Part shown: in pieces, positions 24,601 through 63,764 of the stretch | Layout: the number at the start of each line of letters is the position of its first letter | Numbering within the stretch: the first letter of the stretch is position 1 | Assembly: GCA_964035545.1 (NCBI GenBank) | Contig: OZ037765.1 | Coordinates: 35,291,504 to 35,355,503, forward strand | Source: Bugula neritina | Taxonomy: Eukaryota > Bryozoa > Gymnolaemata > Cheilostomatida > Bugulidae | DNA: 64,000 nt | Direction of reading: 5' to 3' | The notes under the pieces: model-generated | Told to the model about the DNA's origin: nothing | Database searches by the model: none | What the model saw: only the letters and a program-made list of their open reading frames with translations | Position numbers and translations under genes: made by a program

Positions 24601-24714
24601 TATATTTGGATCATTGTAAGTATTTCTGTTGTTGTACTGATTGATAAATATTTTTTAGCTTGCATGGATATTTGCAACGATCAAGATGTCATTTGAACCT
24701 GGACTGGAATAAAG
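21642..24714. other. Cryptically simple DNA without genes
   Basis: About 3 kb of degenerate three- and six-base motifs, for example ACTAATACTAATACTAATAG (about 21990-22010), GATTATGATTATCATTATG (22250-22275) and a GAGTGAGTCCGAGTAAGTCT-like stretch (22050-22110). No ORF above 60 codons, no terminal repeats and no RNA genes are visible. Confidence 0.6.
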
Positions 24715-24762
24715 ATGGCAAATCGAGAAGCTAGCTACAATTATTCTGCAGAAAGAAACTTG
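24715..24762 (+). CDS. Tentative first coding exon
   Basis: ATG in the context AAAGATGG opens a frame of 16 codons (MANREASYNYSAERNL) that ends at a GTAAGC donor in phase 0. An in-frame TAA lies just upstream, which supports this as the start. It is placed first only because its phase and strand fit the next exon. There is no domain. Confidence 0.33.
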
Positions 24763-30700: not shown

Positions 30701-33700
30701 TGTGAAAATTTCTCAAATCTGTTGAAAGTTTGCTTATCTGATGTATACAATATGCAAATAAATATAAGCTAATAAAGAGATGCTATGTAATATTATGACA
30801 TGTGGTTATATGGAATATATAAGAAATGTTCCAATATTCTAATTTCCTATAATGCTTGAATTAAGTAGAAGCTATAGTAAGCTGAGTTTATTAGACTTTT
30901 CTTGTAAAATAAAAAGCTTGAGCTTTATTATGTAATATCCTGCAGACTAAAATCAGGTTCTGATCTAGCAATATATAATGTATAGTTGGTATCTAAATAA
31001 GTTATATACAGTCGTTTGTTATACTATAAGCAGTAATAACCTTTAATTGAAATGTTATAAATAATAAATTTGTATTTTGAAGTATGAAACAAAATTGAAA
31101 TATTTTAGCAAGTGTCTGTAACTATGACAAATATTATTATATATAAAAATATAAATGCATAAACTGTGAAGGGTATATACTTTGTATTCAGCTTGGTGTT
31201 GAAAAAAATAACTCATGGAGTACATTTCACATGTATATGTAATATTTATTTATATCTACTGCAGTAGATATAAATAAATATTACATATACATGTGAAATA
31301 CACCTCATGAGTTCTTTTATTTTCAAAACCAAGCTGAATACAAACTCGATACACTTCACATGATGTCTTTTATTCCAACTTCATACTCCATTGAATGAAT
31401 TTTATATATCAATAATAAACTTTATGCTAGAATTATATTTCCGTTTACTCTGATGGTTGTATTACTATACATGATGTCTCAACTAGTATATGTTTACTGT
31501 AGCATGTCTAACCTGGAGAATCTGGAGACTCTTGATATGTCATGGAATAACTTCAGTGAAGGATTACCTGATGTAGTCACATCAATGAAACCTCTAAGCT
31601 TGTTGCTTATGTCTCACTGTAACCTACTAACTCTACCTGAGAGGTTAGTAAATGCAAGCACCCTCCTAGTGTTTTGCCTCCATGTTTATAGACATGCATC
31701 TCCTGTTGCTATGTATTGTTAAAATTATTGCAAATTTGTTATTCTGTATTTAAGGTTGACCAACAATCTAGAATTTACCTGTATGTCTTCAGACTTACAT
31801 TTTCTTGTTGCTAACTAATCTGTGAAAATTTTTCAAATCTGTTGAAAGTTTGCTTATCTGATGTATACAATATGCAAATAAAGAGATGCTATGTAATGTT
31901 ATGACATGTGGTTATGGAATATATTGTGGTGGTTCGTGGAACTACCAGCAGCACAACATGTAGGGTCGCGTAATTGACCCGGAACAATGGATAGCCAATT
32001 AGCGTAGTTGATAGTTAGCAGCAATTATAGTTTCCCGCTGTTAAGTCAGTCGAAGCTAGAGTGTGAAATAGATTAGATGTGTAACTTGTTTGAATATAAT
32101 GTATTGTTTTTATAATGTATAATTGTGTGTAAAATATACTCGTTCACTCGACTTATCCTGGTGTAGTTCTATAGCAAATAAATAGACTCTCTAGATAGCA
32201 CATCAACCCTAAATCTGAAAATCATAACAGTGGTGGCAGCGCTGGGATAGTGCATCCAAGATGGAGACTGAAAATGCTGGAACTCAACCACCGGCAATAG
32301 AAGGTGAGCGTAGAGACAATGCTGTAGAGACAATGCCTGTTAACCATGTAGTAGAAGAGCGAAGGGTTCCGCGAGAACTAGCTGAGGACCGCTACAGGTT
32401 AAAGGCGCCCACCTTCACGGGTGAAGAGGAGGTGGAACAATTTATCCAAGAGTTTAGCGACGTAATGGACGTCGCCCAGTGGCCCCCTAGGGTGGCCTTG
32501 CTGAAGCTTAGAATGGCATTGATGGACAAAGCCAAGCCTTATGGGCTGGGCGTAGACATTGATAATATCTTTGCTTCTCTGCAGGCCCGCTTCGGCCTCT
32601 CTGCTACAGATGCCAGGGCCCGATTACAGAGGTTGCGGCGTGATCCCCGCACCCCGCTGCGAGAGCATGCCGCTGCGGTCATGAAGCTGGCACAGATCGC
32701 CTACAGCGACTTGCCCCCAGTCAACCGCGAGAGGTATACCCTCGTTGCTTTCATAGCATCTGTCGACGATCTGGGTCTCCACCATCAGTTTCTAGCTAGG
32801 GGAGTCACCACCGTTGAAGATGCTCTGACTGAGGGGGAAGCTTACCTCCTAGCTAATCAAATGCATAAAAGTCGCGGAAGCTCCCGTCAAGTGGAGATAG
32901 ACCGCGCAGACACGGCCGCGGGACAAGGGGAGGAAACCCCCGCCGCGGCTGCCGTGTCCCAGTTGGCGATGGCATCCAAAGTCACTCAACTGACAGACAT
33001 GCTAGCCAAGCTGATAGCAACACTGACACCAAAAAAAACCCAGTGAGTACCGCCCCTGAGCCCATGCGGCCATCGGCGCCGCCACAGGGAGAAACGGTCA
33101 GTTTTTGCTGGGAGTGCGGAAATCAAGGGCATTTCCGCCGATATTGTCCCTTCCTAAATCAGGGGTTAAACTACCGCAGCCCGCAGATGTTCCCACCTCC
33201 TGCGGGCCGATGATGAAACTCCCAGGGAAGAAGAAACGCAGGTCACCCAGACGGGTACCGCGTACTGGTAACCAACAGTGGCAACAGCCACGACGGACCA
33301 GCAAGGGGCTTCGCCCCGCGGCTGCCTTTTCTATGCCCCTTCACAACAGATTCACAGGGCTACGAGTCCAAGAATCTGGATGGGAGCCCACGAAGGTAGC
33401 CGGGGATCTAACCTCGGCACCCCCGAGGCCTACCTACCACCGCCCCAAGAGACCTCCTTCGCGACCCAAAGCGAGGGAGGTACTCCCTGCGAGAGTAGGG
33501 CCTGAAGAGAGAGTTCAGGTGCAGCCCCATGGGAACAGCTATTTCTTGCCCGGTAAACTAGAAGGCAAAGCTGTTACTTTCCTCATTGATTCGGGCTCTA
33601 CCACAAACCTCTTAAGCCGCCAACTCTTCGACACCCTCAGTGCTAGGGTCAGGGGCGAGATGGAATCATACGAAGGGGAATACGGCACCCTAGCTGACGG

Positions 33701-36700
33701 GTCGTGCCATCCCTTCTATGGTATAATTGAGCTGACGGGACGAGTCCGTGATCAAACGATCCAAGAGACGTTCATCGTCAGTCAGCTCAAGGAGGACGCC
33801 ATCCTCGGGATGCCAATCCTAAAACGGCACGGATGTCACATAGATTTTAACAAATCTGCAATGATGATGTTCGGGCGGGAACTCGCCTGCGTCGACAAGT
33901 TCGGCCGCCCTTTAGTGGGAGGTGTGCAAGTGGTACGCAACCGTATCATACCAGGCCGCTCCCGGGCTACCATTCACTGCGGATCTCTGGACTCGGGGTA
34001 GTTGAAGGCGCGCACGAAAAGATCCAACTTGCCAGCAGTCTGAATCAGCTGACTGAGCAAGGGGAGATCTTAGTGCAATGCGTCAACCCCTTTGCCGAGC
34101 CTATCAAGCTCTAGGCTGGGTCGATGCTGGGCCGTTTTCACTTTGTTCAGGAGGAAGACGTAGGCCCGTCGCTGGGTGATGCGACAGAGGCACTCCCTCA
34201 GTGCCCTACTCAAGGGCGAGGGGCAGTCCCCGCACATCTCTGGGAGTTGTATGACACAGCCTGTAGCGGCTGCGCGAGTAACAGAGAACGCCGAGTTATG
34301 GCTAAGTTACTACGCGACTACGGTGATGTGTTCAGCAGCGGAGAGCATGACGTGGGACTGACTGGAATTGTCAGACACGAAATACCGCTGACTGCAGGGA
34401 CAGTCCCTGTCCGGCAGCCCACACGCAGGCTGGGGCCGGAGAAAGAGAAGGAGGTTAGCCGACAAGTACGGGATCTTCTAGACCGGGGACTGATAGAGCC
34501 CGCCCATAGCGCGTGGAGCTCGCCAGTCGTACTGGTCCAAAAGAAAGAGGGCAGTTGGTGGTTCTGTGTGGATTACCGCAAACTCAATAGCGTAACCATA
34601 CAGGACGCCTACCCTCTACCTCGTATTGACGAGTCATTGGACGCCCTAGCCGGCAGCAAGTACTTCAGTACGTTAGACTTGCTAAGCGGCTATTGGCAAG
34701 TTCCTCTGAGTCCCGACGCCCAAGAGAAAGCAGCGTTTATCACACGGGACGGTTTGTGGAAGTGGAAGGTGCTGCCTTTCGGGTTGACCTCCGCCCCAGC
34801 CACCTTCCAGAGGCTGATGGAGCAAGTCCTCAGCGGGCTCCATTGGAAGACACTGCTGATCTACCTCGATGATGTCATCGTGATCTCCCCAGACTTCGAG
34901 AGACATGTCAGTCGTCTGCAGGAGGTCTTTGAGAGACTCCGAGGTGCCGGTCTTAAGCTCAAGCCTTCTAAGTGCGCTCTATTGCAGCCAGAGGTTAAGT
35001 ACCTGGGGCACGTTGTCGGTCAAGATGGCGTGGCAACGGATCCCGAGAAGGTAGGGGCAGTAGAAGACTGGGTCACCCCCCAAGACTTGACCGGACTCCG
35101 GGCTTTCTTGGGGCTGGTAGGGTATTACAGACAATACATACCAGACTTTGCGGGCATAGCACAGCCGTTAAACCGGCTCACCGCAAAGGGAGTAACGTGG
35201 CAGTGGACCCCAGTCGAACAAGAAGCGTTCGACCGCCTCAAGGGCTGCCTACTAACGGCGCCCATCTTTGCCTACCCAGACCCCACTCTGGAGTACATCC
35301 TCGACACGGACGCCAGTGACCAAAATATTGGCGCTGTGCTGTCACAAGTGCAGGAAGGCCGAGAAGTAGTAGTAGCCTACTACAGCAAGTCTCTCTCACC
35401 CATTGAACGAAATTACTGCACTACCCGCAAGGAGCTGCTGGCAGTAATAAAGTCAGTGAAGCACTTCAGACCATACCTATATGGCAGGAATTTCCGGCTG
35501 CGTACGGATCATGCCTCGCTGATCTGGTTGTGCAAGAGAGCAGAGCCCTCTAGTCAGGTCGCCCGGTGGCTCGAAATCCTAGCTGAATTCTCATACCGGA
35601 TCGAACATCGACCGGGCAAGAGACACAGCAATGCGGATGGGTTGAGTCGCCGACCTGACGGAAGTTGCAAACAGTGTCTCAACATCGAGAGGAGGGATGG
35701 AGGTCCCCCGCGATGCGAGTTGGAGACGCTGGCTCATCACGGAGCACCGTTTGACTGGGACCAAGGTCAACTCAGGCCAAGAGTTGATGAGTCCCCGGAG
35801 GATGTACAAAACCTCCGCGCCAACCCTGTACTGGCCGGTAATGTTCGAGAGCTGAAGAAGCTCCAAGAAGAGCTGCCTGGAGTCGTGGCAGACATATACC
35901 GGGCCAAAAGGGAAGGGCGCAACCCAGCGAGGAACGCATACGACAGGGATGCGCCGAGTTCCGGCTATACTGTCAGCGTTGGGACTCGCTGCGGATCGGG
36001 CAGGATGGGTTACTAACCATCTCTCTAGCTGCCAGCGGCAGACACCCGGAAAGGAAGAGGGTAGTCTGCCCCACGGCCATCCGCCGTGAGTTGATTTGGG
36101 ATACCCACAAACAGGCCCACGCAGGGGTCAAGAGAGTGATATCCAAATTATGACTCCGGTGGTATTGGCCACAAATGGAGCGTGACGTCCGGCTCAGAGT
36201 CAAACAGTGTGAGATCTGCCAGGCCAGTAAGCATAGCCGCCCCCCTGGTGAAGCAGGACGGCGGAGGCTATATGCTGGTAGGCCCTGGCAAGTAGTCGCT
36301 GTAGACCTGGTCGGACCCATGCCCCTGACCCCCAGAGGCAATAATTGGATCCTAGTACTAACCGACCACTTTACTAGGTGGGCGGATGCTCTGGCTATCC
36401 CAGATGCATCAGCCCCAACAGTGGCCAGGGCACTAGACCAACATGTATTCTGTTATTTTGGGCTTCCCGAACAGATACACTCTGATCAAGGCGCTCAATT
36501 CCAGTCTCAACTGATGAGCGACCTTTGCCACCTCTGGGGAGTAAATCAGAGCAGGACCACCCCCTACCACCCTCAAGGTAACGGGGTGGTGGAGCGCAAC
36601 AACCGGATGCTAGGTGATGCACTCCGGAGTCTCCTCCTTGGACGAGGTCAAGAGGAATGGGATACGGTGTTGCCGCAAGTCATGCGTGCATACCGTAGCA

Positions 36701-39700
36701 CCCCACACACCAGTACTGGTGAGACCCCAAACCTCTTGATGCTCGGGAGAGAGACTCGTGTCCCTGACCATCTCACCTATCACGTTCCAGAGCAAGACAA
36801 CTCGGTTCACGAGTATGCCAGTGAACTAGTGGAACGGATGAAGGCCGCACACGATATACTGCGCCAACAGCAGTGGAAGGTGCGGCACGAAGATTCCGAT
36901 GAACCACCTCTCTATCAAACGGGAGATAAGGTGTGGATGGTCAATTACGGTAGGCGTCGCGGACAGGCTGATAAACTGAAGCCTAAGTTCGTAGGCCCCT
37001 ACGTGGTCGTCGAGGCTATGCCCAATCATACGTACAAGATCGAGCGCTCAGGACAGGTGTCTATCCAGAATGAGTCTCGCTTGAAACCGTATTGGGCTAG
37101 CCCCGACGGAGTGGGAGAAGCCCCCCCGTTGTAGAGCCCAGGAGGCAGACAACGACGCGCGGGCGACGGCGGCATGGACCTGAATACGAAGTGGTCATAC
37201 CGCGGGAAAAAAACTTGGTGAGAGAGGAGCGGCAGCTTTTGTCAACAGAAGCGTGTCCGCCACCGCCAAGTCTAATTCCATCACTTCCAGCAACCGAACC
37301 GGTTCCGGAAGTGCAAACCCCCACGGAGGGAGGGGCTCCATCCGGAGAACAAGAAGAGGTGACCGCTAACGGTGAAGTAGAGACGCCATTAGAGGCCCCT
37401 ACTAACGAACCGGCAAGCGTGTCACCCCCCTAGAAAGGGGACAGCGTACGAGGCAACCCCCCGCATACTTGAAGGACTTCATATGCGACTGCGTTAAAAG
37501 CGGCGTGTATGAAAGTCTAGGGGAAAACCGTACGAGAAAAGTATCGAGCAAATGTGGGAGTTGTCAACACCACGGAAATATCAACTTTTGTATCGGCGGA
37601 AATAGAAACAAAATTCATCCGCCGGGTGCACAAAGTCTTAATCACGCACCCCAACCACGTTGCTCGATCTTTTCATACGCTGATGCAGTCAGGAGTAGAC
37701 GTGTTTCTAAGCAGTAGTTCAAACCATTTCACACATTCAGTATGTCTTACAACAACAGATCGTGGGGTGAGTTAACTATATCTTAATACGAAACTAGATT
37801 GCATCGCTCAGCTCTGACTCACTGAGTCAACCGAGCTGGAGATAGGTTAGTGAAATACCGTAGTAAGAACTCAGTTTGACTTAGAGATTTTTATAATCTC
37901 ATTGCAATACGTGTTCTATCTGACTATTCACTACCATAATCTCTACGAGGTAACTGAATTAGGAGTTGCCAAGCTATTTAAGCTGACAACACGGCAGTGT
38001 ACTGTATTAACACTGTTGAAACTTTTTCAGATTACACTCGACCCGCTACAACCAGGGTACGGGATAGAACACTTCCCGCTCCGCATCCGGAGGAGTATGC
38101 TAGTGGTGACCGGCCTGAGCCACTACGCCGCCGTTGGCGGTGGGTGTCTCCACAAACAGAGGAAGAAATAGAAACGGCCTGGGGGTCCAGAGGACGGACG
38201 AGATGCCAGATCTGTGGTGAAGATTGCGCCTCTCACCGCTCCCTTAAACTACACGTCAATGCTCATCTCCTACTAACATTCTGCCCCTGCGGGTACAATG
38301 ATGTGTATCTCTACCCCGTCACCAGACACCGAGCGACGGGCTGTTTCCCTGGAGAAAACTACGTGGTCGACGCTAAGCTATACCCGGAGTTCCTCACACT
38401 TATACGACCTCTGGTGAAGAAGGCCATGCTGTTAGCCGTTCTGTCCTCGGGATTCCAACGTGTGTTAGACAACGCCCGCCAACAATCCCCGTTGGTGTCT
38501 GACCGCCCTCAAATTACATACACCCCCGAGGAAATTACATATACAGAAGAAGGAGAGATCTCCCCTACCCCGACGAAGAGACGAACCAGGTCCCCCAGTC
38601 CACCCTTGCGCCGCAGACGGACACCGTCCCCAGACCCAGTCCGCCTAGCCACAGCAGAAGAACGCCTCCTGCGATTACAAGAAGAATTCACCCAGCTGGC
38701 ACCAGATCTACTTAACACTACAACAGGACTCTTCCAGCTAAAGGGATCCGTATGCCGTATGAAACGGAAACTGCGTACATGCCAAGCCAAGCACCGGCGT
38801 GCCCAACAAGGACTCTAGTTAGACTACCCGGAGTACTCCAACTTCGCCTCTTGGGGGAAACCAAGATGTCATGTAAACGTTTGACTGCTTAACAGGTTAT
38901 CCCCTGTCTAACACCACAGCTAGCTAGTATTCCTCGTCTATCTACAGCTGGCCAATTGTATGCAACGGATCGTTATAATGACTCTGTCTATTATTATGTC
39001 TCTTCCTGTATATTATGTGTTATTTTTGTCCACTGATGTATGCGGTTACTAATGAATGTTTTTTTTATATATATATCAGAAAGATGGCTTTCTGCTGGTG
39101 GGGGCGGTGTGGTGGTTCGTGGAACTACCAGCAGCACAACATGTAGGATCGCGTAATTGACCCGGAACAATGGATAGCCAATTAGCGTAGTTGATAGTTA
39201 GCAGCAATTATAGTTTCCCGCTGTTAAGTCAGTCGAAGCTAGAGTGTGAAATAGATTAGATGTGTAACTTGTTTGAATATAATGTATCGTTTTTATAATG
39301 TATAATTGTGTGTAAAATATACTCGTTCACTCGACTTATCCTGGTGTAGTTCTATAGCAAATAAATAGACTCTCTGGATAGCACATCAACCCTAAATCTG
39401 AAAATCATAACAATATAAGACATGTTCCAATATTTTAATTTCGTATAATGCTTGAATTAAGTAGAAGTTATAATAGTAAGCTGAGTTTAGTAGACTTTTT
39501 GTGGAAAATAAAAAGCTTGAGCTTTATTATGTAATATCCTGCAGACTAAAATCAGGTTCTGATCTAGCAATATATAATGTATAGTTGGTATCTAAATAAG
39601 TTATATACAGTCGTTTGTTATACTATAAGCAGTAATAACCTTTAATTGAAATGTTATAAATAATAAATTTGTATTTTGAAGTATGAAACAAAAATGAAAT

Positions 39701-42700
39701 ATTTTAGCAATTGTCTGTAACTATGACAAATATTATTATATATAAAAATATAAATGCATAAACTGTGAAGGGTATATACTTTGTATTCAGCTTGGTTTTG
39801 AAATGAAGGACTCATGCAGTATATTTCACATGTATATGTGAGATTCGTATCTACTGATGTCTTCTATTCCAACTTCATACTCCATTAAATGAAATTTATT
39901 ATATATCAATGGGAAACTTTATGCTAGAATTATATTTCCTTTTACTCTGATGGTTGTATTACTACATGATGTCTCAACTAGTATATGTTTACTATAGCAT
40001 GTCTAATCTGAAGAATCTGGAGACTCTTGATGTGTCAGAGAATAACTTCAGTAAAGGATTACCTAATGTAATCACATCAATGACATCTCTAAGAGAGTTG
40101 AATATTACAGAATGTGAACTACCAACTCTACGTGAGAGGTTAGTGAAACCAACTTCATCTGAAATGTTCATTCAGTAATTTCAAAGAATTATTGAATTAT
40201 ATAATTCAATAATTAGACATACAACTATAATAATAAATACAATTTGCTTTTAGTTTTACAAATACATTTCATTGAATTCAAAATATGTTTTTATACTTAT
40301 TATATTATATTATATTTAATTGCATCAATTATTTTGTTTTATTATAATATTTTATTGCATCGTATCTCAATTATTATATTATATGTTTGTTATATGTTTA
40401 CTGATGTCTTCTATTCCAACTTCATATTCCATAAAATGAAATTTATCATATATCAATAGGAAACTTTATGCTAGAATTATATTTCTATTGCTTTAGATGG
40501 TTGTATTACTACATGATGTCTCAACTAGTATATGTTTACTATAGCATGTCTAATCTGAAGAATCTGGAGACTCTTTATATGTCAGTGAATAACTTCAATG
40601 AAGGATTACCTGATTTAGTCACATCAATGACATCTCTAAGGAAGTTGGATATTAGAAACTGTAAACTACCAACTCTACCTGAGAGGTTAGTGAAAGTAAC
40701 TTCATATGATATGTTTATCTAGTAACTCCAAAAGGTATTTTTGACTTCTATAATTTTGATCAGGCATCTATGATTATAATAGCGGATGAAATGTGTTTGT
40801 ATATAGTTTTACTTCATACAATCATCTTTCTTTGTAAGTTTGAGTGCTTTTTTATCTAGTGTGTTACATATTATTATATTACACTGTATTATACTATTTT
40901 ATACTACACTATATTGCATTACATTATATTATAATTATATATATTATGTTATATTATAATATAATATTAGAGTATAATTATCTTCACTATCATATATGCT
41001 GACTCTAGCATTTCTATAGTACATTGTATTATATATTATATTGTAATATAATCAATTACACTATACTATATTATTTCAATACGATGTAATATAATATATT
41101 ACTATTAAATTTTATACTGTATTATAATATATTTTACTGTATAATGGTACACTATACTATAATATATTATAACTCAACTAGTATATGTTTACTATAGAAT
41201 GTCTAATCTGAAGAATCTGGAGACTCTTGATATGTCAAAGAATAACTTCAGTAAAGGATTACCTGATGTAGTCACATCAATGACATCTCTAAGAGAGTTG
41301 AATATTAGTCACTGTAACCTACCAACTCTACCTGATAGGTTAGTAAAACTAATTTTATATGAAATTTTCATTCAGTAATTTCAAAGAATAATTGAATTAT
41401 ATAATTCAATAATTAGACACACAACTATAATAATAAATATATTTTATTCAATTCAAAATATGTTATTATATTTAATATATTATATTATATTTAATTACAT
41501 CAAATATTTTATTTCATTATAATATTTTATTATATTGCATCGTATCTCAACTAGTATTTTATGTGTTTACTGTAGCATGTCTAATCTGAAGAATCTGAAG
41601 ACTCTTGATATGTCAGGGAATAACTTCAGTGAAGGATTACCTGATGTAGTCACATCAATGGCATCTCTAAGAGAGTTGAATATAGAGACCTGTGAACTAC
41701 CAACTCTACCTGAGAGGTTAGTAAATGCAAGCACCCTCCTAGTATTTTGCTTCCATGTTTATAGACATGCATCTCCTGTTGCTATGTACTGTTCAAATTA
41801 TTACAAATTTCTTATTCCATATTTAATGTTAACCAAAAAGATCCTAAACAATGTTTTAACTCAAAAGAAATATCACGTTATATATGCTACTCTTTTAACT
41901 TATTCCATAAAAAGCTGCATATATCCTGTTACATGATGTCTCAATCAGTATATGTTATAATATATATATTCATATATTACATATGATGTCTCAACTAGTA
42001 TATGTTTACTACAGCATGTCTAATCTGAAAAATCTGGATACTCTTAATATGTCAGGGAATAACTTCAGTGAATGTGAAGGATGCAGGATGTAGGATGTAG
42101 TTCTGCATTAGAAGTACTTATCCTACATTCCCCTCCCTTCAAACGACATCACAATTACTATAAGACACCAAATTATCATAAGCAAATTCTATGGATTAAA
42201 ATACTAATATACATATAATTATCATTAATGCAGTTATATGTCACAAGGAAACCTCATCTCCATGCTTTTTAGAGAGAAAACAGTTGCATTAAGGGCAGAA
42301 TTCATCAAGTTGTATTTTATTGCATGTAACACCTAAGGATTTATCTATCACAACAGCTGTATACAGATGTAATTCTTTAACTGACAAATTTGAGAAAATT
42401 TTCTCATTCTAAATCTACAAACATGTTTACAAACTAATAGATATATCAAATTAATATAGGCTAATTATATGCAGCCTTTAATCAGATGAAATACTAAAAT
42501 GTAAAATTATTATTATTATTATTATTGTTATTATTATTATTGTTGTTATTTTAACATGATGCGAAAAAACTTGGTCTTTATTTTTTTTCAAATAAAATAG
42601 TTGGGTTTAATTTATTAAATTATATTTTGTAATATTTTGTTGTATTTAGTTTACTTCCAAGTGGCGCAGGAGCACTTCTATAGTAAAACAGTTATTAGGA

Positions 42701-45700
42701 GTTGTCATTTCTTAAATGACGTGTTTAAGAAAAGTTGCCTGTGATAAGTATGCAGACATTTCGCAAATTCATAACAGTCTGAATAAGTGTTGAGTTGAGG
42801 TTGTAAGACTTTTCTAAACATTTTCAAAAGCTGTAACCAGAAGGAGTATATTTGCTGAATTCTGACTTATAATAATATATGTTTTATCTTAATTGCAGTT
42901 TGAAGTATTTGGAGAATCTGGAAGATCTGTATATTCAGAATAACAACTTTACTACAATTCCAGAGGCTGTCTGCAACTTGAAGAAATTACAAGTGATACA
43001 GGTTGATGGATGCAAGTCTTTAACCACTCCCCCTTATGAAGTCTGCACCAGAGGATTGCCAGCAATCAGACAGTATTACAGAGATCTTGCTAAAGGTGAA
43101 GGTGAAAGTCTCCCACTAGTCACCATTGCAGTGATTGGTAACACAATGGCAGGGAAGACAAGTCTCATCAGAACATTGCAGAGTGAAGAGAGAAAGAGAG
43201 TGCTGACAAATCGTGGACCTGAGGCTGCCGTTGATGAAACAACTAAAGTCTTTAAAGTTGAAGAGTTGAAAGTGCACAACACGCTTCTGAGACTAATTGA
43301 CCTGGGAGGACAACCAGTGTACCACATGACGTACCAGCTTACACTTAAACAGAACTGCATCCCAATAGTAGTGGTGAACATGGAGCAGTATCATCAGCTG
43401 GCAGAAAAGAAGGGAAACAGAGAGGCTGTGAAAAGACTGGCTTTTGATTGGCTGGCTCATTTGTACGTGGCAAACCCTGGCATTGGACCACCAAAACTTG
43501 TGTTTACTCACAAAGACAAGTTTGATGAGGATAATTTCACAAAGATGACTACTGCTTTTACCAGCACAGCTGATCTACTGAAAGATGAAATTATCAGAGA
43601 AGAGAAAAAACTTGACCAAAGCATAGCAAAGATAGAGCACTTCCATCAACACAGAGAGCTGTTCTCGCAAGAAGATATCTACTCAGTTGGAAAAGAAGAT
43701 AATTATCAAACATACGAAGTCATGAAAACTGCCATTTTCAGGTCAGCTCAAAATTTTGTGAAAGTGTTGCCAAAGCTATGGGAAGATGTGAATGAGAAAG
43801 TCTTGGGATTACAGACAGCATTCAGTACACTTGATGAGATAATTGATACAGTGCTGCAAGTAGATGAAACCATCACATCTGATCAGCTTGCCATAATCCT
43901 CATCTACATGCATGATTGTGGTAAAGTCTTGTGGTACAAGGATATCCAGGAGTTGAACCAAATTATTTTTCACAAGATTGAGGAAGTAACTAAATTACTC
44001 ACAGTCTTGTTTCATCACGATGAAGATGTGTGGCAGACACGGCAAGCAAATTTTGAACCACCTCTTCTGACTAACGGAGCTTTTCTTGAGAAAGAACAGT
44101 TTGAGAATTCCATGGAGATTTTCTTGTCAACAGGAATCATGGAGAGCCAACTTCTAGAATATTTAATCAAAGCTGAGACAGCATTCTCCGATGAAAATGC
44201 ACATCAACTTGCTGCTACTTTGCTGCAGAAATTCAGCATTCTGTACGGACCAGTTGATCGAGATTCAAAAAGCTGTTTCATTGTTCCCTTCTACTCCCCT
44301 GATTACCTAGAGAACACTCTCACTACTGATCAAGACATCATTCTCCATGCTGAGATCATGTTCAAAGGTCTCTCAATCCCACAATATGTCTACCAACAGA
44401 TGAGTGTTGTTGTCCTACGAATGTTCCCAGATGAGACAAGTGCTCCCCTCGTTACAAAAAATGGTGTAAAGGTTTTTCACAATGATGTCTCGGTGCGCCT
44501 TGTCCATGATGGCCTATCAAGGAAGGCAGATGTTACAGTGTCTGGAGCAGCAGAGAAAATCACAGATTGTTGGAAGCACATGGTCAGCATAACCAGGAAA
44601 ATATCCAATGAGATCTACAGTTCATGGCCTGCCAGCAGAATGGTCCACAAGTCTAGTTGTACACACTGCATATTGAAAGGTGAATCCAGTCCTAAGGTTC
44701 AGGTAACTCCCAAATGGTGTGTCGACTTTCAAACGGAGACACCTTATGAGCAGTTCCAGAAGGAGATAGTGACAGTTCTTTGTAGAGGAGATAAGATCCT
44801 AAGCCCATTCATGCACCCATGTAAGTTAAGTTGGTGCGATAAAATAGTTCTGTAAGTTGAGAACTTAAAATATCTAAGTGTAGATAATATGTTGAATTTT
44901 GTTGGCAATCTTAGCTAGCTAAATTATGCATTTAAAATTTTTAAATAAATCAGGGTAACTAAAAGTATTTATGTTTTATGGGCTTTGTCTATTTATGATA
45001 ATTATTGTTTATAAAATTGGGTGCAGCAACTTTTTTTGTTAACAAGAGAAGAATTGTTTATCATTCACTAATAAAACTTGAAGTTTAATTGTAGGCAAGC
45101 CTTTCACTAAGTCTAAACTAAAGGAACTGAAGGCAATGCTGAAAAAGTTAAAGATGCAGCAGAAGCATTGGAAGAAAGAGACAGATGAATCAGGTATACT
45201 ATACACTCAAGACTGAAGTGTCCTGCAGTTGTGTCTCCCTGAAGATCTAGAAAGGAAGTGATGTATTAAACAGACAGATAAAGTGTAATATGTTACAGAG
45301 ACAAGCAAGCCCACACTCACTATATCTATAGCTCCTCTCCTACGACCAGCAGTACAGCAGACTGTGACAGACGGAGAGAGTGACCTCTCTGATGATGATG
45401 ACTACATGGAACCTGCTGATGACCCTGACAGACAACTGGTATCTCTCAGACAGGCAGTTCTACCAACTACTAGGAAGGGCATTCGGAGATTATTCTACAA
45501 CACAGATAAAGTGTGACATCACAATATCTTCTCAATAATACTTTGGTTATCTTATATGGCTACGGCTCTACACTAACAATTAACACACATTTTATAAACC
45601 TTGACAAATATTGATTATGTATTTAGGTTAAAATTTTTCGGCTATTTATATGATTAAAAAAAGTGGCTTTTAGAATGAATATACATGTTTAGAAAATCAC

Positions 45701-47753
45701 ATAGAGCACCATCTCTCTGCACAATTATGCCGGAACTATGCTAAAGTTTTCTCAGATTAGGAAGTTATAATACACTAGCTGTTTGATAGTTTGAAACACT
45801 GTTCCTATTATATAGGCCAGTTTAACTGACTTAAAACTTTCTATGTGTCTGTTCCATTTTAATTTTATTGTTTAATCACAAAAACATTTCAACTATCCAA
45901 AGGTTTTACAAGACCAAACAAGTAGATCAAGTGTTTATATAATTAAGATTCAATGATTACTGACTGCAGGTGTTTCTAATGACAAAGAACAGAGGAAGAG
46001 CTCTGATAATCAACAACAGAGAATTTTCCAATTGCCAGGAAAGACTTGGCTCTGATGCTGACGTTAGAAATCTTGAAGAAATGTTAGAAACATTCAAATT
46101 TGCCACCAAGGTTTTTGAGGAAATCAGCGCTGAGGTAACAGGATATCTGTAAATTATAGAGACTAAATTGAGTGATGATTAAAATGTCGATGGTGAATTT
46201 TTCGAAGAGTAGGAGAAAAATCATAGGATGAATTATTTTTGCATATTTTTTACAAGTCAACAGTTTTATGTGACCCAATTCTAAGATGCATCAAGTTACA
46301 TAAATTCACTGCATACTTGAAATAATGGTGAACTTAAAGTTAACTGCAGTTCCAACTAGCAGAGAGAATTAAATATGTTTATAGGACATGTTGCATGTGA
46401 TAAAGAATGAGGTTGAAAACAGACATCATGCTGAGTCTGGAGTATTCTGGTTGGCTATTCTAAGTCATGGAACTGAGGCTAATCACATCTATGGCTCTGA
46501 TGGTGTTCTGGTTAACCTAAAGGATGTCTATGATCTTCTTTCACCAATAAACTTTCCTCTAATGGCTGAGAAGCCAAAGATAGTCGTGATTCAGGCCTGT
46601 AGTGGAAGTGAGTATCACATAATATCTATATAACTATTTGCCTCTATAGAACCTTATTACTACAATGAGCTCATCTGAAGACTTTTGGGTAAATCAGAAA
46701 AGTGTAACTATATTCAGTACTGTTCATCTCCAATACGTTTGCTAGATAGAGTAGATGGAGGCGGGAAAGGAATATTTCCAGCCAATCAGAATGATAATAC
46801 AGTTACTGACCAACATTTGGTAGTCAAAGCTGTCAGATCAGCAGCTGGAGAACCTTTGGGAGGAGACAGATTAGAGAAACTCAACTGTGACAATCTGTTA
46901 ATATTAAAGTCCAGCTTTGAATGTAAGTAAATAGCATATTCTTTCTCTAAACATGACAAAATTAGTTCTGCATATAACAATAAGCAAATAATTTATTTGT
47001 ACAGTTTTCTAAAAAAGAAATGAATCCAGACTCTACCAGATTCAGGGAATTTAGAAAATGAATAGAATATTTGAAAGTGGAAGAATCAAATAATATTATG
47101 ACTTTACAAAATATTGGCAGTCTCGAAATTACTTTGTCTTTTAGTCCCGCATTTAGTTCATAGCCAAATAATAGCTACATAACATTTTATGCTGAAAAGA
47201 CATTTTCCCTACATTTCCTAATATTATATTTTTAAGATTTGTGTTGCAGCATATGTGTCTAGACGTCACCCTGTTTATGGATCTCTAGCAATTAGATGTC
47301 TGGTCCAAACTATGTACAGGCACGCATGCCACAGACATGTCTATAAAATATTTAGGATTGTAAGTATATATATCAGAGAAAAACAGCATGTATTGGTATT
47401 TGCATATGTGAACATACATCCGATAAACTTAATTTAATTGCTTGGCTGTCACCAATTCTTATGTTTATCTGCAGGTACAGCACAGGGTGAGAGAGTTTTG
47501 CATTCAGAGAAACCTTGAGAATGGTCAGACAGTCATTGCTATAAATACTCTGACACACATGAGAAAACTCTACCTGTTTCCTGGATACAATGGCTTTACA
47601 AGGAACTCTGAACGATCAAGTAACATGAGACAACAAGTAGAGAGAGAAGTAGAATCAAGTAGCCTCAAGCAACCAGCAGAAAGAGAAGCAGAGGCAAGTA
47701 GCAACACACAACAGCTTGTAGAGAGAGGACCAGAAACAAAAGTTAAACAGTAA
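24715..47753 (+). CDS. LRR-Roc-COR-caspase fusion protein (gene model, 16 exons)
   Basis: Proposed exons: 24715-24762, 25214-25281 (both tentative), six LRR exons (30383-30523, 31503-31643, 39998-40138, 40545-40685, 41198-41338, 41576-41716), 42899-44820, 45095-45193, 45299-45510, 45970-46134, 46385-46607, 46746-46922, 47250-47359 and 47475-47753. All have AG acceptors and GT donors, and all phases agree, giving 1382 residues. The order is an N-terminal helix, about 12 leucine-rich repeats, Roc GTPase, COR dimerisation region, lysine-rich coiled coil, acidic linker, and caspase p20 and p10. Known families: LRR-Roc-COR (ROCO) proteins are GTP-regulated signalling scaffolds, and caspases are Asp-specific cysteine proteases of cell death. 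Inferred role: an intracellular sensor that activates its own caspase. The weak point is the donor GTGTGA at 45511. If it is not used, the Roc-COR protein stops at 45514-45516 and the caspase is separate. A Ty3/gypsy element occupies one intron. Confidence 0.55.
25214..25281 (+). CDS. Tentative second exon, amphipathic helix
   Basis: After a TTTTAG acceptor, 22 codons read EIKMKTQLTDAISLWLHAVY and on, then AG before a GTACTC donor (weak). The phase-2 end joins correctly to any of the LRR exons, which all begin with the third base of a codon. The segment would be a single amphipathic helix. The intron to the first LRR exon would be 5.1 kb. Confidence 0.33.
25474..25748 (+). repeat. Polypyrimidine (CTCTCCCACCCT)n tract
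   Basis: An almost pure C/T strand of about 275 bases with imperfect units such as CTCTCCCACCCTCC. Two overlapping open frames here only reflect the lack of stop codons in CT-rich sequence. The tract falls inside the predicted long intron. Confidence 0.9.
29107..29166. repeat. 30-bp tandem duplication
   Basis: Two exact adjacent copies of a 30-bp unit beginning ATTTATAATGATATAAAGCC. Confidence 0.95.
29682..29713. repeat. Perfect 32-bp palindrome
   Basis: Centred on GAGCTC (29695-29700) with arms TTTTTTCATGCAT and its inverse. It has no spacer. It may be a cruciform or a dimeric binding site; function unknown. Confidence 0.95.
30383..30523 (+). CDS. LRR exon 1 of 6
   Basis: A 141-nt exon with acceptor TTTACTATAG and donor GTTAGTA. 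It encodes 47 residues holding two leucine-rich repeats: MSNLKNLDTLYMSKNNFSEG, then SMTSLRKLDISHCNLPTLPE. Both ends are phase 2, so the exon can be added or dropped without changing frame. It shares upstream intron sequence with the other LRR exons and downstream intron sequence with exons 2 and 6. Confidence 0.75.
31182..31344. repeat. Long intronic palindrome (~80-bp arms)
   Basis: Arms meet at CTGCAG (31259-31264). The inner ~50 bases per side are exactly complementary and the outer parts nearly so (TTGTATTCAGCTTGG against CCAAGCTGAATACAAA). The paralogous intron at 39780-39860 has only one arm. Confidence 0.92.
31503..31643 (+). CDS. LRR exon 2 of 6
   Basis: A 141-nt symmetric phase-2 exon encoding MSNLENLETLDMSWNNFSEG and SMKPLSLLLMSHCNLLTLPE. 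It is the most diverged in its second repeat (KPLSLLLMS in place of TSLRKLDIS). Acceptor TTTACTGTAG, donor GTTAGTA. The Ty3/gypsy element lies in the intron that follows. Confidence 0.72.
31925..32229 (+). repeat. 5' LTR
   Basis: Starts TGTGGTGGTTCGTGGAAC, ends AATCATAACA, 305 bp. It contains AATAAATAGA near its end (about 32180), a plausible polyadenylation signal in R. Confidence 0.95.
32231..32246 (+). promoter_or_regulatory. Primer binding site candidate
   Basis: TGGTGGCAGCGCTGGG lies one base after the 5' LTR. Its complement would end in CCA, as a tRNA 3' end does. I do not assign the tRNA. Confidence 0.7.
32261..33046 (+). CDS. gag: Gag (capsid-type) protein of the Ty3/gypsy element
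   Basis: A 261-residue frame with an ATG (ACCAAGATGG-like context) just after the primer site. The central region (about residues 45-180) has the helical, Trp/Arg-rich composition of retrotransposon capsids (LKAPTFTGEEEVEQFIQEF, then RLRRDPRTPLREHA). It forms the structural particle that packages the RNA. The frame stops at 33044-33046, right after an A8 run (33031-33038). The zinc knuckle follows in the -1 frame, so either ribosomes slip on the A run or a base has been lost. Confidence 0.9.
   Translation: METENAGTQPPAIEGERRDNAVETMPVNHVVEERRVPRELAEDRYRLKAPTFTGEEEVEQFIQEFSDVMDVAQWPPRVALLKLRMALMDKAKPYGLGVDIDNIFASLQARFGLSATDARARLQRLRRDPRTPLREHAAAVMKLAQIAYSDLPPVNRERYTLVAFIASVDDLGLHHQFLARGVTTVEDALTEGEAYLLANQMHKSRGSSRQVEIDRADTAAGQGEETPAAAAVSQLAMASKVTQLTDMLAKLIATLTPKKTQ
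33047..33213 (+). CDS. Nucleocapsid zinc knuckle segment
   Basis: In the -1 frame relative to gag, residues CWECGNQGHFRRYC (33106-33147) form a C-x2-C-x4-H-x4-C knuckle, the RNA-binding motif at the end of Gag. The frame runs from the A8 run to a TGA at 33211-33213. The protease frame is again one base back. Confidence 0.85.
33105..34001 (+). CDS. pol: Protease region of pol
   Basis: An open frame of 298 codons. The real coding part probably begins near 33200 after the knuckle frame. A proline/arginine-rich linker leads to a retropepsin domain with FLIDSGSTTNLLSR (active-site Asp-Ser-Gly at residue 162) and the later hydrophobic flap and ILGMPIL motif (about residue 225). This aspartic protease cleaves the Gag-Pol polyprotein. 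It stops at 33999-34001 in a G4 run, and pol resumes in the -1 frame. Confidence 0.88.
   Translation: MLGVRKSRAFPPILSLPKSGVKLPQPADVPTSCGPMMKLPGKKKRRSPRRVPRTGNQQWQQPRRTSKGLRPAAAFSMPLHNRFTGLRVQESGWEPTKVAGDLTSAPPRPTYHRPKRPPSRPKAREVLPARVGPEERVQVQPHGNSYFLPGKLEGKAVTFLIDSGSTTNLLSRQLFDTLSARVRGEMESYEGEYGTLADGSCHPFYGIIELTGRVRDQTIQETFIVSQLKEDAILGMPILKRHGCHIDFNKSAMMMFGRELACVDKFGRPLVGGVQVVRNRIIPGRSRATIHCGSLDSG
34001..36016 (+). CDS. pol: Reverse transcriptase-RNase H region of pol
   Basis: From 34001 the frame is open except for a TAG at 34112-34114. After 34124 it runs 630 codons. The RT domain has FCVDYRKLNSVT, LDLLSGYWQVPL and the catalytic YLDD at about residues 247-250. RNase H follows with ILDTDASDQNIGAVL (about 393), a central Glu (TRKELLAV) and a late TDHASL. 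It copies the RNA into DNA and removes the RNA strand. The frame is lost near 35950, and the integrase N-terminus lies in another frame. Confidence 0.93.
36017..37134 (+). CDS. pol: Integrase region of pol
   Basis: The frame comes from the -1 position before 36016. The H-H-C-C zinc domain (HKQAHAGVKR, then CEICQASKH) is crossed by a TGA at 36151-36153. The catalytic core has Asp (VAVDLVGPMP), Asp (HSDQGAQF) and Glu (GVVERNNRML) at residues 44, 104 and 140 counted from 36175, a DD35E spacing. It ends with a GPY/F-like segment (KPKFVGPYVV). It inserts the cDNA into the genome. The stop at 37132-37134 follows a C7 run, and a proline-rich tail continues in another frame. Confidence 0.93.
37135..37500 (+). 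CDS. Pol C-terminal tail, frame-broken
   Basis: After the C7 run at 37121-37127 a second frame continues the protein with basic RRQTTTRGRRRHGP, then an acidic proline-rich tail (37191-37433), then, after another shift, RQPPAYLKDFICDC (about 37452-37494). Gypsy integrases commonly have such tails, often ending in a PPxYLKDY/F-like motif. It has no enzymatic domain. Confidence 0.6.
38030..38818 (+). CDS. Extra 3' ORF with tandem zinc fingers (accessory protein)
   Basis: An open frame running 37997-38818 without an ATG at its start. A good splice acceptor (AACTTTTTCAG, ending at 38030) lies just inside it, so it may be expressed from a spliced subgenomic RNA. It carries a C2H2 finger (C70, C73, H86, H90 counted from 37997; CQICGEDC to LHVNAH), then a second C-x-C-x12-H-x4-C set (FCPCGYND to HRATGC), an arginine/serine/proline stretch (RRTRSPSPPLRRRRTPSPDP) and a C-terminal coiled region. 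There is no signal peptide or membrane span, so it does not look like an envelope protein. The zinc fingers and RS-like stretch suggest nucleic-acid binding. The role in the element is unknown. Confidence 0.7.
   Translation, partial: DYTRPATTRVRDRTLPAPHPEEYASGDRPEPLRRRWRWVSPQTEEEIETAWGSRGRTRCQICGEDCASHRSLKLHVNAHLLLTFCPCGYNDVYLYPVTRHRATGCFPGENYVVDAKLYPEFLTLIRPLVKKAMLLAVLSSGFQRVLDNARQQSPLVSDRPQITYTPEEITYTEEGEISPTPTKRRTRSPSPPLRRRRTPSPDPVRLATAEERLLRLQEEFTQLAPDLLNTTTGLFQLKGSVCRMKRKLRTCQAKHRRAQQGL
39094..39107 (+). promoter_or_regulatory. Polypurine tract
   Basis: CTGGTGGGGGCGG lies directly before the 3' LTR, the usual site for plus-strand priming. Confidence 0.7.
39108..39412 (+). repeat. 3' LTR
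   Basis: 305 bp. By eye it differs from the 5' LTR at three positions (GTAGGATCG for GTAGGGTCG, GTATCGTT for GTATTGTT, CTCTGGATAG for CTCTAGATAG). It is followed by the ATAT duplication. Confidence 0.95.
39998..40138 (+). CDS. LRR exon 3 of 6
   Basis: A 141-nt phase-2 symmetric exon (MSNLKNLETLDVSENNFSKG, then SMTSLRELNITECELPTLRE). The proline of the usual LPE end is Arg here. Its downstream intron matches that of LRR exons 4 and 5 in part. Confidence 0.75.
40545..40685 (+). CDS. LRR exon 4 of 6
   Basis: A 141-nt phase-2 symmetric exon (MSNLKNLETLYMSVNNFNEG, then SMTSLRKLDIRNCKLPTLPE). Acceptor TTTACTATAG, donor GTTAGTG. Confidence 0.75.
41198..41338 (+). CDS. LRR exon 5 of 6
   Basis: A 141-nt phase-2 symmetric exon (MSNLKNLETLDMSKNNFSKG, then SMTSLRELNISHCNLPTLPD). 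Its first base is A, where the others have C, so the junction residue becomes Arg instead of Ser. Confidence 0.75.
41576..41716 (+). CDS. LRR exon 6 of 6
   Basis: A 141-nt phase-2 symmetric exon (MSNLKNLKTLDMSGNNFSEG, then SMASLRELNIETCELPTLPE). The flanking intron after it is the same type as after LRR exons 1 and 2. Confidence 0.75.
42015..42072 (+). pseudogene. Truncated LRR exon
   Basis: A seventh copy with an intact acceptor (TTTACTACAG) and the first 19 codons (MSNLKNLDTLNMSGNNFSE). Then the sequence breaks into GATGCAGGATGTAGGATGTAG with stops, and no donor follows. It is a dead exon. Confidence 0.8.
42899..44820 (+). CDS. Last LRR, Roc GTPase and COR domains (single long exon)
   Basis: Acceptor TTAATTGCAG at 42898; donor GTAAGT at 44821; about 640 codons. 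A final LRR (LKYLENLEDLYIQNNNFTTI) leads into the Roc domain. Its P-loop is GNTMAGKTS (43137-43163), switch II is LIDLGGQPVYH (Asp at 43299), and the base-recognition motif is FTHKDK (about 43503-43520). The COR region follows, with LIYMHDCGKVLWY (43899-43937) and PFYSPDYLENTL (44287-44322). No kinase follows, so this is not an LRRK. Roc binds and hydrolyses GTP, and COR mediates dimerisation in known ROCO proteins. The frame is continuous, without lesions. Confidence 0.93.
45095..45510 (+). CDS. Coiled-coil and acidic linker exons
   Basis: Exon 45095-45193 (acceptor TTTAATTGTAG, donor GTATAC) encodes a Lys-rich helix, KLKELKAMLKKLKMQQKHW. Exon 45299-45510 (acceptor GTTACAG) encodes TLTISIAPLLRP, an acidic run SDLSDDDDYMEPADD, and RRLFYNTDK. 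Phases join on both sides. Unspliced, the frame reaches TGA at 45514-45516. Using the GT at 45511 gives a phase-0 join to the caspase exon. The acidic, Asp-rich linker offers possible self-cleavage sites. Confidence 0.6.
45970..47753 (+). CDS. Caspase (peptidase C14) domain, five exons
   Basis: Exons 45970-46134, 46385-46607, 46746-46922, 47250-47359 and 47475-47753 have consistent phases 0, 1, 1, 0. The p20 part has KNRGRALIINNREF, the catalytic histidine in LAILSHGTE, YGSDGVLVNLKDVY, and the catalytic cysteine in VVIQACSGNRVDGG (canonical QACxG). The p10 part has SYVSRRHPVYGSLAIR (YVSWR in most caspases, the Arg lines the S1 pocket) and MRKLYLFPG near the end. It is complete and probably active: an Asp-specific cysteine endoprotease of the cytosol. 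Asp residues in NQNDNTVTD are candidates for the p20/p10 cut. A Gln/Glu/Ser-rich tail of about 50 residues follows. There is no prodomain of its own, which fits fusion to the upstream Roc-COR exons. Confidence 0.92.
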
Positions 47754-48307: not shown

Positions 48308-48323
48308 AATAAAGGCAAATAAA
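48308..48323 (+). terminator. Candidate polyadenylation signals
   Basis: AATAAA at 48308-48313 and again at 48318-48323, about 550 bases after the caspase stop. These are the nearest plausible signals downstream of it. Confidence 0.4.

Positions 48324-52526: not shown

Positions 52527-63764
<11,238 letters not shown>

Follow-up and report, generated by a model that had tools for sequence, protein, structure and literature searches.

In bacteria, variable N-terminal leucine-rich repeats (LRRs), a Roc GTPase, a COR domain and a C-terminal effector are combined in single proteins that occur as multiple paralogs, and a caspase is listed among the at least 24 C-terminal effector domains of these LRR-AP-GTPase(Roc)-COR proteins (PMC8195603). 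The LRR-ROCO genes of brown algae, 111 genes in four species, carry their LRRs in separate phase-2 exons that shuffle and diversify, and their products have been proposed to be immune receptors (PMC11378527). In known Roco structures the dimer is mediated by COR, and a dimer-monomer cycle has been proposed for Roco proteins (PMC6337361; PMC11052575). Here we describe a gene of the cheilostome bryozoan Bugula neritina that lies within 64,000 nucleotides of contig OZ037765.1 (assembly GCA_964035545.1, positions 35,291,504 to 35,355,503 of the forward strand); this whole stretch is called the window, and coordinates given without a contig label refer to it. We consider it very probable that this one gene encodes one polypeptide composed of a cassette-like LRR sensor, Roc, COR, an acidic linker and a complete caspase, which would place a sensor, a switch and a protease in the same chain.

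Several animal systems resemble parts of this layout. The NLR inflammasome and the APAF1 apoptosome use a repeat sensor and a nucleotide switch to activate caspases, as is proposed here, but they rely on a STAND NTPase, whereas the bryozoan gene has a Ras-like GTPase and holds the caspase in the same chain. LRRK1 and LRRK2 have the LRR-Roc-COR fold in common with exon A of the gene. LRRKs carry a kinase, and neither they nor MFHAS1 (MASL1) has a caspase, unlike the bryozoan gene; NCBI labels one Watersipora protein (P0042) an MFHAS1 homolog. Initiator caspases such as CED-3, which carries a CARD, and Watersipora protein P0021 are alike to the gene in caspase core and entry motif, and P0021 also in its acidic linker, but they have a CARD where the bryozoan gene has LRR-Roc-COR.

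The bryozoan gene differs from the bacterial proteins in its animal-type caspase (best structural relative CED-3), its multiple exons and its CARD-caspase-like linker, and from the brown-algal genes in that each of its LRR exons holds two LRRs in 141 base pairs (bp) rather than one in 72 bp (PMC11378527). An earlier sequence-only reading of this DNA had regarded the architecture as undescribed. That does not stand for bacteria, from which the LRR-Roc-COR-caspase layout is already known (PMC8195603). No description of an animal Roco-caspase fusion was recognised among the top-listed papers in searches of the open-licence PMC literature, and a term search of the main text of PMC7836458 met no Roc, COR or LRR.

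Structure of the gene

Eight exons (A to H) occupy 42899-47753 of the + strand, all with GT-AG borders and compatible splice phases. Spliced together, they read without interruption for 1061 residues, not counting the split codon at the start, up to a TAA stop. The coordinates, strand, splice phases and motifs that the sequence-only reading gave for this interval hold on re-examination. The features are as follows, with the evidence in brackets.

42899-44820, + strand: exon A, last LRR, Roc GTPase and COR (Pfam; profile match to Roco structures, Roc part; fold match)
43137..43160, + strand: P-loop GNTMAGKT (sequence)
45095-45193, + strand: exon B, Lys-rich linker (phase 1/1; COR end joined to the equivalent exon in B. 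neritina gene model P0023)
45299-45510, + strand: exon C, acidic linker ending in YNTDK (matches in the same genome)
45382..45393, + strand: DLSD motif, candidate self-cleavage site between Roc-COR and caspase (locus count)
45511..45516, + strand: donor gtgtga, with the TGA at 45514-45516 intronic (paralog junctions)
45970-46134, + strand: exon D, start of caspase p20, VFLMTKNRGRALIINN (PF00656, 1.8e-9)
46385-46607, + strand: exon E, p20 with catalytic His at 46466-46468 and Cys at 46598-46600 (PF00656, 3.8e-12; CED-3 alignment)
46746-46922, + strand: exon F, p20/p10 linker (95% identical in the closest paralog)
47250-47359, + strand: exon G, p10 start, YVSRRHPVYGS (aligned with CED-3 YVSWRNSARGS)
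47475-47753, + strand: exon H, p10 end, C-terminal tail and stop (open frame)
48308..48313, + strand: AATAAA hexamer, the first 3' of the stop (sequence)

Pfam recognises Roc in exon A (PF08477, 1.1e-6, 29.3 bits against a cut-off of 27), and COR-A (PF16095, 4.3e-4) reaches 20.6 bits, short of the 35.3 that its cut-off demands. When exon A was combined with 19 homologs into a profile, the PDB entries for the Roco proteins of C. tepidum and M. barkeri matched at about 2e-12, along no more than the Roc part. The best of five AlphaFold2 models of exon A has a mean predicted local distance difference test score (pLDDT) of 80.3 (70.0-74.5 for the other four) and a predicted TM-score (pTM) of 0.81. 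With this model, Foldseek finds dimeric LRRK1 8e05 (3.6e-20, query-normalised TM-score only 0.59), the C. tepidum LRR-Roc-COR crystal structure 6hlu (1.7e-18, 0.50) and the isolated COR 3dpt (4.2e-9, 0.32). A COR directly after Roc, below the Pfam cut-off, is supported by this predicted fold. The GTPase motifs of the window are GNTMAGKT, DLGGQ and THKD ([NT]KxD-type), and all three (G1, G3 and G4) are present in 26 of 28 near-full exon A loci, none of which has a stop; this count and that of DLSD leave out C1_35332903, a duplicate of the window. Neither a NACHT nor an NB-ARC NTPase appears in the Pfam list for exon A, and the upstream exons identified are LRRs.

Exons D to H encode a whole caspase, with SHG and QACSG in p20 and YVSRRHPVYGS in p10, and Pfam places Peptidase_C14 on both exons D and E. 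Exons C, F and H, scanned singly against Pfam, gave no family (exons B and G were outside that scan), and an Rfam scan of the window gave nothing. The nearest solved sequence to the caspase half is CED-3 (1.5e-20), and caspase-1 8wra_A matches query residues 10-263 at 4.3e-19. In the CED-3 alignment, which is weak over the p10 motif, the arginines that we take to belong to the substrate pocket are apparently retained. Both His and Cys survive in 30 of the 33 loci whose exon E match is near-full (29 scored by script, one by eye), a count that omits the window duplicate, loci with an incomplete exon E match and three caspases that have no Roc-COR match (C4_4999494, C5_12532058 and C6_14151871). 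The Cys is replaced by Ser in L052 (C6:2638323) and L050 (C6:3789430), and the His is lost in L053 (C6:4706128); these altered copies are possible decoys or regulators. Outside the window's own group the pentapeptide is mostly E[VTA]CSG rather than QACSG.

A search of the same genome with exon C gave 62 matches at E<=1 (self counted), 20 of them at E<=1e-3. The DLSD motif occurs in 31 of 36 loci, which are related and not independent, as against 1.1% in composition shuffles, and it may be a DxxD-like site for self-release. The sequence-only reading had counted exons B and C as two linker exons; their phases fit, but exon C may instead be the caspase's own N-terminal exon, because it is similar to the linker of the CARD-caspase P0021.

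The junction of exons C and D

The TGA at 45514-45516 follows exon C directly and had been placed by the sequence-only reading within a candidate GT donor, whose use would make it intronic and join NTDK to VFLMTK. Paralogs support this. The junction was read in 34 distinct loci of the same genome, window included (35 loci minus the window duplicate), and a GT donor is kept in 33 of them: at exactly the homologous position in 30 and shifted by one codon in 3. The locus without it (exon C at C1:35246001) also carries a stop in exon D. The closest paralog, whose Roc-COR exon lies at C8:4884199, reads gtggga where the window has gtgtga. With a slash marking the splice, the usual junction is LF.N[TS][DE]K/VF.MT..RGRALIINN, with variants that include NTVK and NTNE. 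Without splicing, the other copies would read on for 1 to 51 codons (21 more in the closest paralog), and three loci would stay open right across the intron. Because the length of this read-through differs among copies, the TGA is not a shared feature of the family, and the paralog junctions rule it out as the end of the gene. The donor AAA/gtgtga at 45511 is weak when taken alone; its position is fixed by homology. Moreover, the predicted joint is made in B. neritina gene model P0020 (EB796_024372), which contains LFSNTDKVFSMTRKRGRALIINN joined and preceded by exon B and C sequence (order B-C-D), so that LFSNTDK runs into VFSM.

Related proteins

In a protein search with the caspase half, B. 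neritina and Watersipora subatra account for five of the eight matches, including the five best, and the stretches that match best are 82-97% identical to the B. neritina models. One of these models, P0023, joins the COR end to exon B. A typical paralog used as query found 54 proteins; the stronger ones were mostly Roc-COR pieces from jgi, lgn or ena sources, and bacterial matches were only weak. In that search a caspase was present in Watersipora proteins P0041, P0042 and P0051, and no caspase match was present in Watersipora P0047 or B. neritina P0053. The W. subatra protein P0041 (NCBI, 1337 amino acids) holds LRR, Roc-COR and a whole caspase in one chain at 100% query cover. Pfam gives MMR_HSR1 above cut-off and a caspase at 8.5e-31 over residues 931-1316, and its COR and acidic SDLSD linker were seen by alignment to the window. 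P0042 and P0051 show the same LRR-Roc-COR-caspase layout, each in a gene model that covers it in part. The claim of the sequence-only reading that a Roc-COR GTPase and a complete caspase share one polypeptide is therefore upheld by the paralogs, by P0041 and by the B. neritina model with the predicted junction.

Watersipora P0021 has a CARD (precomputed Pfam), a similar acidic linker and then a caspase. Because this linker resembles exon C, it suggests that LRR-Roc-COR took the place of the CARD upstream of an existing caspase linker, and the similarity to an animal CARD-caspase hints that the fusion may have been assembled within animals. Transfer of the whole fusion from bacteria was set aside: pattern scans of bacterial genome contigs and of viral contigs gave 29 pattern matches each and no relative, which is weak evidence. 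At megablast sensitivity, phages (121-base query) and plasmids (exon A) gave no match.

P0041 begins with MGCSLS, which resembles the start of myristoylated and palmitoylated proteins; it may anchor the fusion to membranes.

The family in the genome

A Roc query of the genome gave 113 candidates, all scored, and 110 matches including the window; an exon E query gave 139 candidates, all scored, and 135 matches. A caspase exon lies downstream of Roc on the same strand within 5 kb in 101 of 110 cases and within 10 kb in 106 of 110 (median 2.97 kb). No Roc match has an opposite-strand caspase within 12 kb (0/110), and one has a same-strand caspase upstream within 10 kb. The pairs use 105 distinct caspases, one of them common to two Roc matches. 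Against the 101 pairs observed within 5 kb, 500 circular shifts yielded 0.42 on average and never more than 11; guessed lengths were used for contigs C7 and C9 in this test. Chance adjacency is ruled out by order, strand and these shifts. Among the four unpaired Roc matches, three do have a caspase on their own strand, but further downstream at about 12 to 17 kb, and the fourth (C1:2754041, 39% identity) has no caspase near. The pairing holds between clusters that sit on separate contigs and among copies as little as about 45% identical. Roc matches are free of stops in 108 of 110 cases, and exon E matches in 133 of 135. In an earlier count, which covered 69 of 209 candidates and drew on 149 of 176 matches, 63 of the 69 had exon C or a caspase exon within 7 kb downstream; the main count rests on the full scoring. 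By sequence, the number of such fusion genes in this bryozoan genome appears to be about 105, many of them clustered. A 2363-residue open frame at C1:33884509 was set aside, as the locus holds 1428 N.

Caspase exons with no Roc within 10 kb upstream number 30 of 135. Ten such exon E matches lie together at C9:9322752-9412877.

Genome-wide searches for prodomains gave 7 CARD and 13 Death matches, of which the nearest to a Roc match are 94.8 kb and 266 kb away, so that none lies within 94 kb of any Roc match; these searches were exon-wise and miss domains split by introns, and DED was not searched genome-wide. A weak CARD match at C6:14148625 (3.5e-4, one internal stop) stands about 4.6 kb upstream of a same-strand QACRG caspase at C6:14153380, and the two are a candidate conventional CARD-caspase.

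Selection and mosaic history

Between the window and its closest paralog, the ratio of nonsynonymous to synonymous substitution rates (dN/dS) is 0.27 for exon A, 0.25 for D, 0.22 for E and 0.27 for F. Against five paralogs exon A gives 0.25-0.32, and in eight close paralog pairs every defined ratio for A, D and E falls below 1 (0 to 0.86). The two halves of the gene differ in their relatives. The Roc-COR exon of the window is separated from five others by a synonymous distance (dS) of 0.24-0.42, whereas its caspase exons C-F are near to only one of these, C8:4884 (dS 0.02-0.45); against the other four dS is above 1 or saturated, with exon F, where found, at 0.71-0.86. In gene trees of the 22 loci with both halves in hand, a deep split and a C6 group are common to Roc-COR and caspase. 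The Roc-COR tree rejects the group favoured by the caspase tree (p 9.1e-8), whereas the caspase tree does not reject the six-gene Roc-COR clade (p 0.08). Because of this contrast in dS and the conflict between trees, we read the history as probable exchange of sensor and caspase halves, or gene conversion, between genes atop a shared deep history.

Upstream LRR cassettes

LRR exons of the same gene extend upstream to at least 30383. They comprise six modules, each exactly 141 bp long, in phase 2 at both ends and holding two LRRs.

30383..30523, + strand: LRR module 1 (GT-AG bounded, phase 2/2)
31503..31643, + strand: LRR module 2 (module match)
39998..40138, + strand: LRR module 3 (module match)
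40545..40685, + strand: LRR module 4 (module match)
41198..41338, + strand: LRR module 5 (module match)
41576..41716, + strand: LRR module 6 (module match)
42015..42093, + strand: truncated LRR module (departs from the module after NNFSE, then a stop; no donor at the usual place)

The sequence-only reading had described the gene as lesion-free. This is correct for 42899-47753 but not further upstream, where the module at 42015 is truncated and is probably skipped in splicing. Relative to their consensus, the six modules carry 42 distinct nonsynonymous changes on 110 sites and 3 synonymous ones on 31 (p 0.0015, one-sided Fisher test), a small sample that gene conversion could distort, and the pooled pairwise proportions of nonsynonymous and synonymous differences are 0.135 (pN) and 0.040 (pS). 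In one module pair 60 of 60 upstream intron bases are identical beside 125 of 141 exon bases. Searches for an N-terminal domain in the window, upstream of paralogs L057 and L059 and in three Watersipora N-termini convincingly matched only LRR modules.

Interpretation

Several observations weigh against a single fused and functional chain. The proteins cited from Watersipora and Bugula are gene models taken from databases. Some of them are incomplete: P0020 is without most of exon E, P0023 skips exons C-E, P0042 ends within the caspase and holds its first part only, and P0051 starts inside the P-loop. Even in P0041, Roc scores 20.4 bits, below the cut-off of 27, and COR is not listed by Pfam. 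The closest paralog is one of the two loci without the full set of GTPase motifs, its P-loop pattern being absent. The linker exons give dN/dS values of 1.32 (B) and 1.96 (C) against that paralog, on very few sites. Given the E[VTA]C pentapeptides, the Cys-to-Ser changes and the His loss, not every copy need be active, and the weak donor of the window would permit a short isoform. The exon-wise CARD and Death searches and the six-module LRR test belong on the same side, as do the remaining module pairs, in which only 26-53 of 60 flanking bases are alike.

The labels 'GTP-switched' and 'LRR-sensing' of the sequence-only reading, and its apoptosome-like logic, are plausible from the parts by analogy; the transcript, GTP control, direction of the dimer switch, protease activity, cleavage, ligand and immune function are what we infer. 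The ligand of the LRRs may be a danger signal, a microbial product or a non-self molecule, and its binding may alter the nucleotide state and dimer contact of Roc-COR. The COR end would then bring two tethered caspases together. Their closeness would make them active, and they would cleave their own chains in the conserved acidic linker (DLSD) and again at the p20/p10 boundary, with killing or signalling as the outcome. As the caspase is tethered just after COR, it would feel the Roco dimer-monomer cycle. A further point against the simplest form of this model is that GTP-bound CtRoco is a monomer (PMC11052575), so the notion that GTP makes dimers may be wrong; the activating step may be the hydrolysis of GTP or the renewed formation of dimers, and not the binding of GTP.

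We tentatively hypothesize, and hold it to be somewhat short of an even chance, that cheilostomes possess a germ-line repertoire of about 100 single-chain 'inflammasomes', in which shuffled LRR cassettes under diversifying selection feed a Roco-wired caspase, halves are exchanged between genes, and the whole stands in for a CARD-adaptor route, either in defence against pathogens or in the recognition of self and non-self by colonies. A family of about 100 is typical of plant or animal NLR repertoires. It is also conceivable, although rather unlikely, that the family serves developmental cell death or signalling, for example in zooid regression, instead of an immune or self/non-self repertoire. 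Caspases act in development, and no ligand was named by the tests made; against this, some 105 copies, many clustered, look like a receptor repertoire, the LRR cassettes are rich in amino-acid changes, and sensor and caspase halves form mosaics.

The other rivals concern the structure of the gene itself. The window copy could be decaying and yield no working protein even though the fusion is real in the family, as the Ty3-like element within its LRR region, the truncated module and the weak donor might suggest. We consider this unlikely, since exons A-H are free of stops and frameshifts, exon A is constrained against five paralogs, and this copy retains both its GTPase motifs and its His/Cys dyad. 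More doubtful still is the idea of two products, namely an LRR-Roc-COR isoform terminated by the TGA at 45514-45516, and a caspase that is either fused or separately started at the ATG in VFLMTK. The stop directly behind a weak donor, the variant polyadenylation hexamer ATTAAA at 45653 and the in-frame ATG in exon D would allow it, but 45516-45960 contains no AATAAA, the stop position is not shared (three loci lack an in-frame intron stop) and Watersipora P0041 is fused. That separate, unfused neighbours are held together as a tandem unit is highly improbable: tandem clusters could preserve order and strand, but the pairing persists between contigs and down to about 45% identity, exon C starts in phase 1 with matching junction phases, and P0041 is one protein.

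If the single-chain gene is real, it represents an animal receptor family with sensing, nucleotide switching and killing in one chain, and an animal that has arrived at a layout described for bacterial defence proteins. It also raises the question of whether the dimer cycle of a Roco GTPase, which forms the core of LRRK2 in Parkinson's disease, can control a protease. The literature searches made here showed little on bryozoan immunity.

Other features of the window

Between LRR modules 2 and 3 lies a retroelement outside the gene product.

32228..37433, + strand: Ty3-like retroelement open reading frames (RVT_1 1.1e-34, rve 1.7e-16, Asp protease 1.7e-6, in three frames)

Its frames cover protease, reverse transcriptase, RNase H and integrase. 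Further upstream, 22785-29680 is a long repeat without clear coding sequence that matches C6:6167203-6174150 (97.2% over 6959 columns), where the copy stands just upstream of another Roc-COR gene. A 278-residue open frame at 37982-38818 has no Pfam match and shows, by eye, a C2H2-like CxxC...H stretch. Downstream of the gene, a frame at 57911-58255 with a partial MAM match (3.8e-6) is probably an exon of a neighbouring gene.

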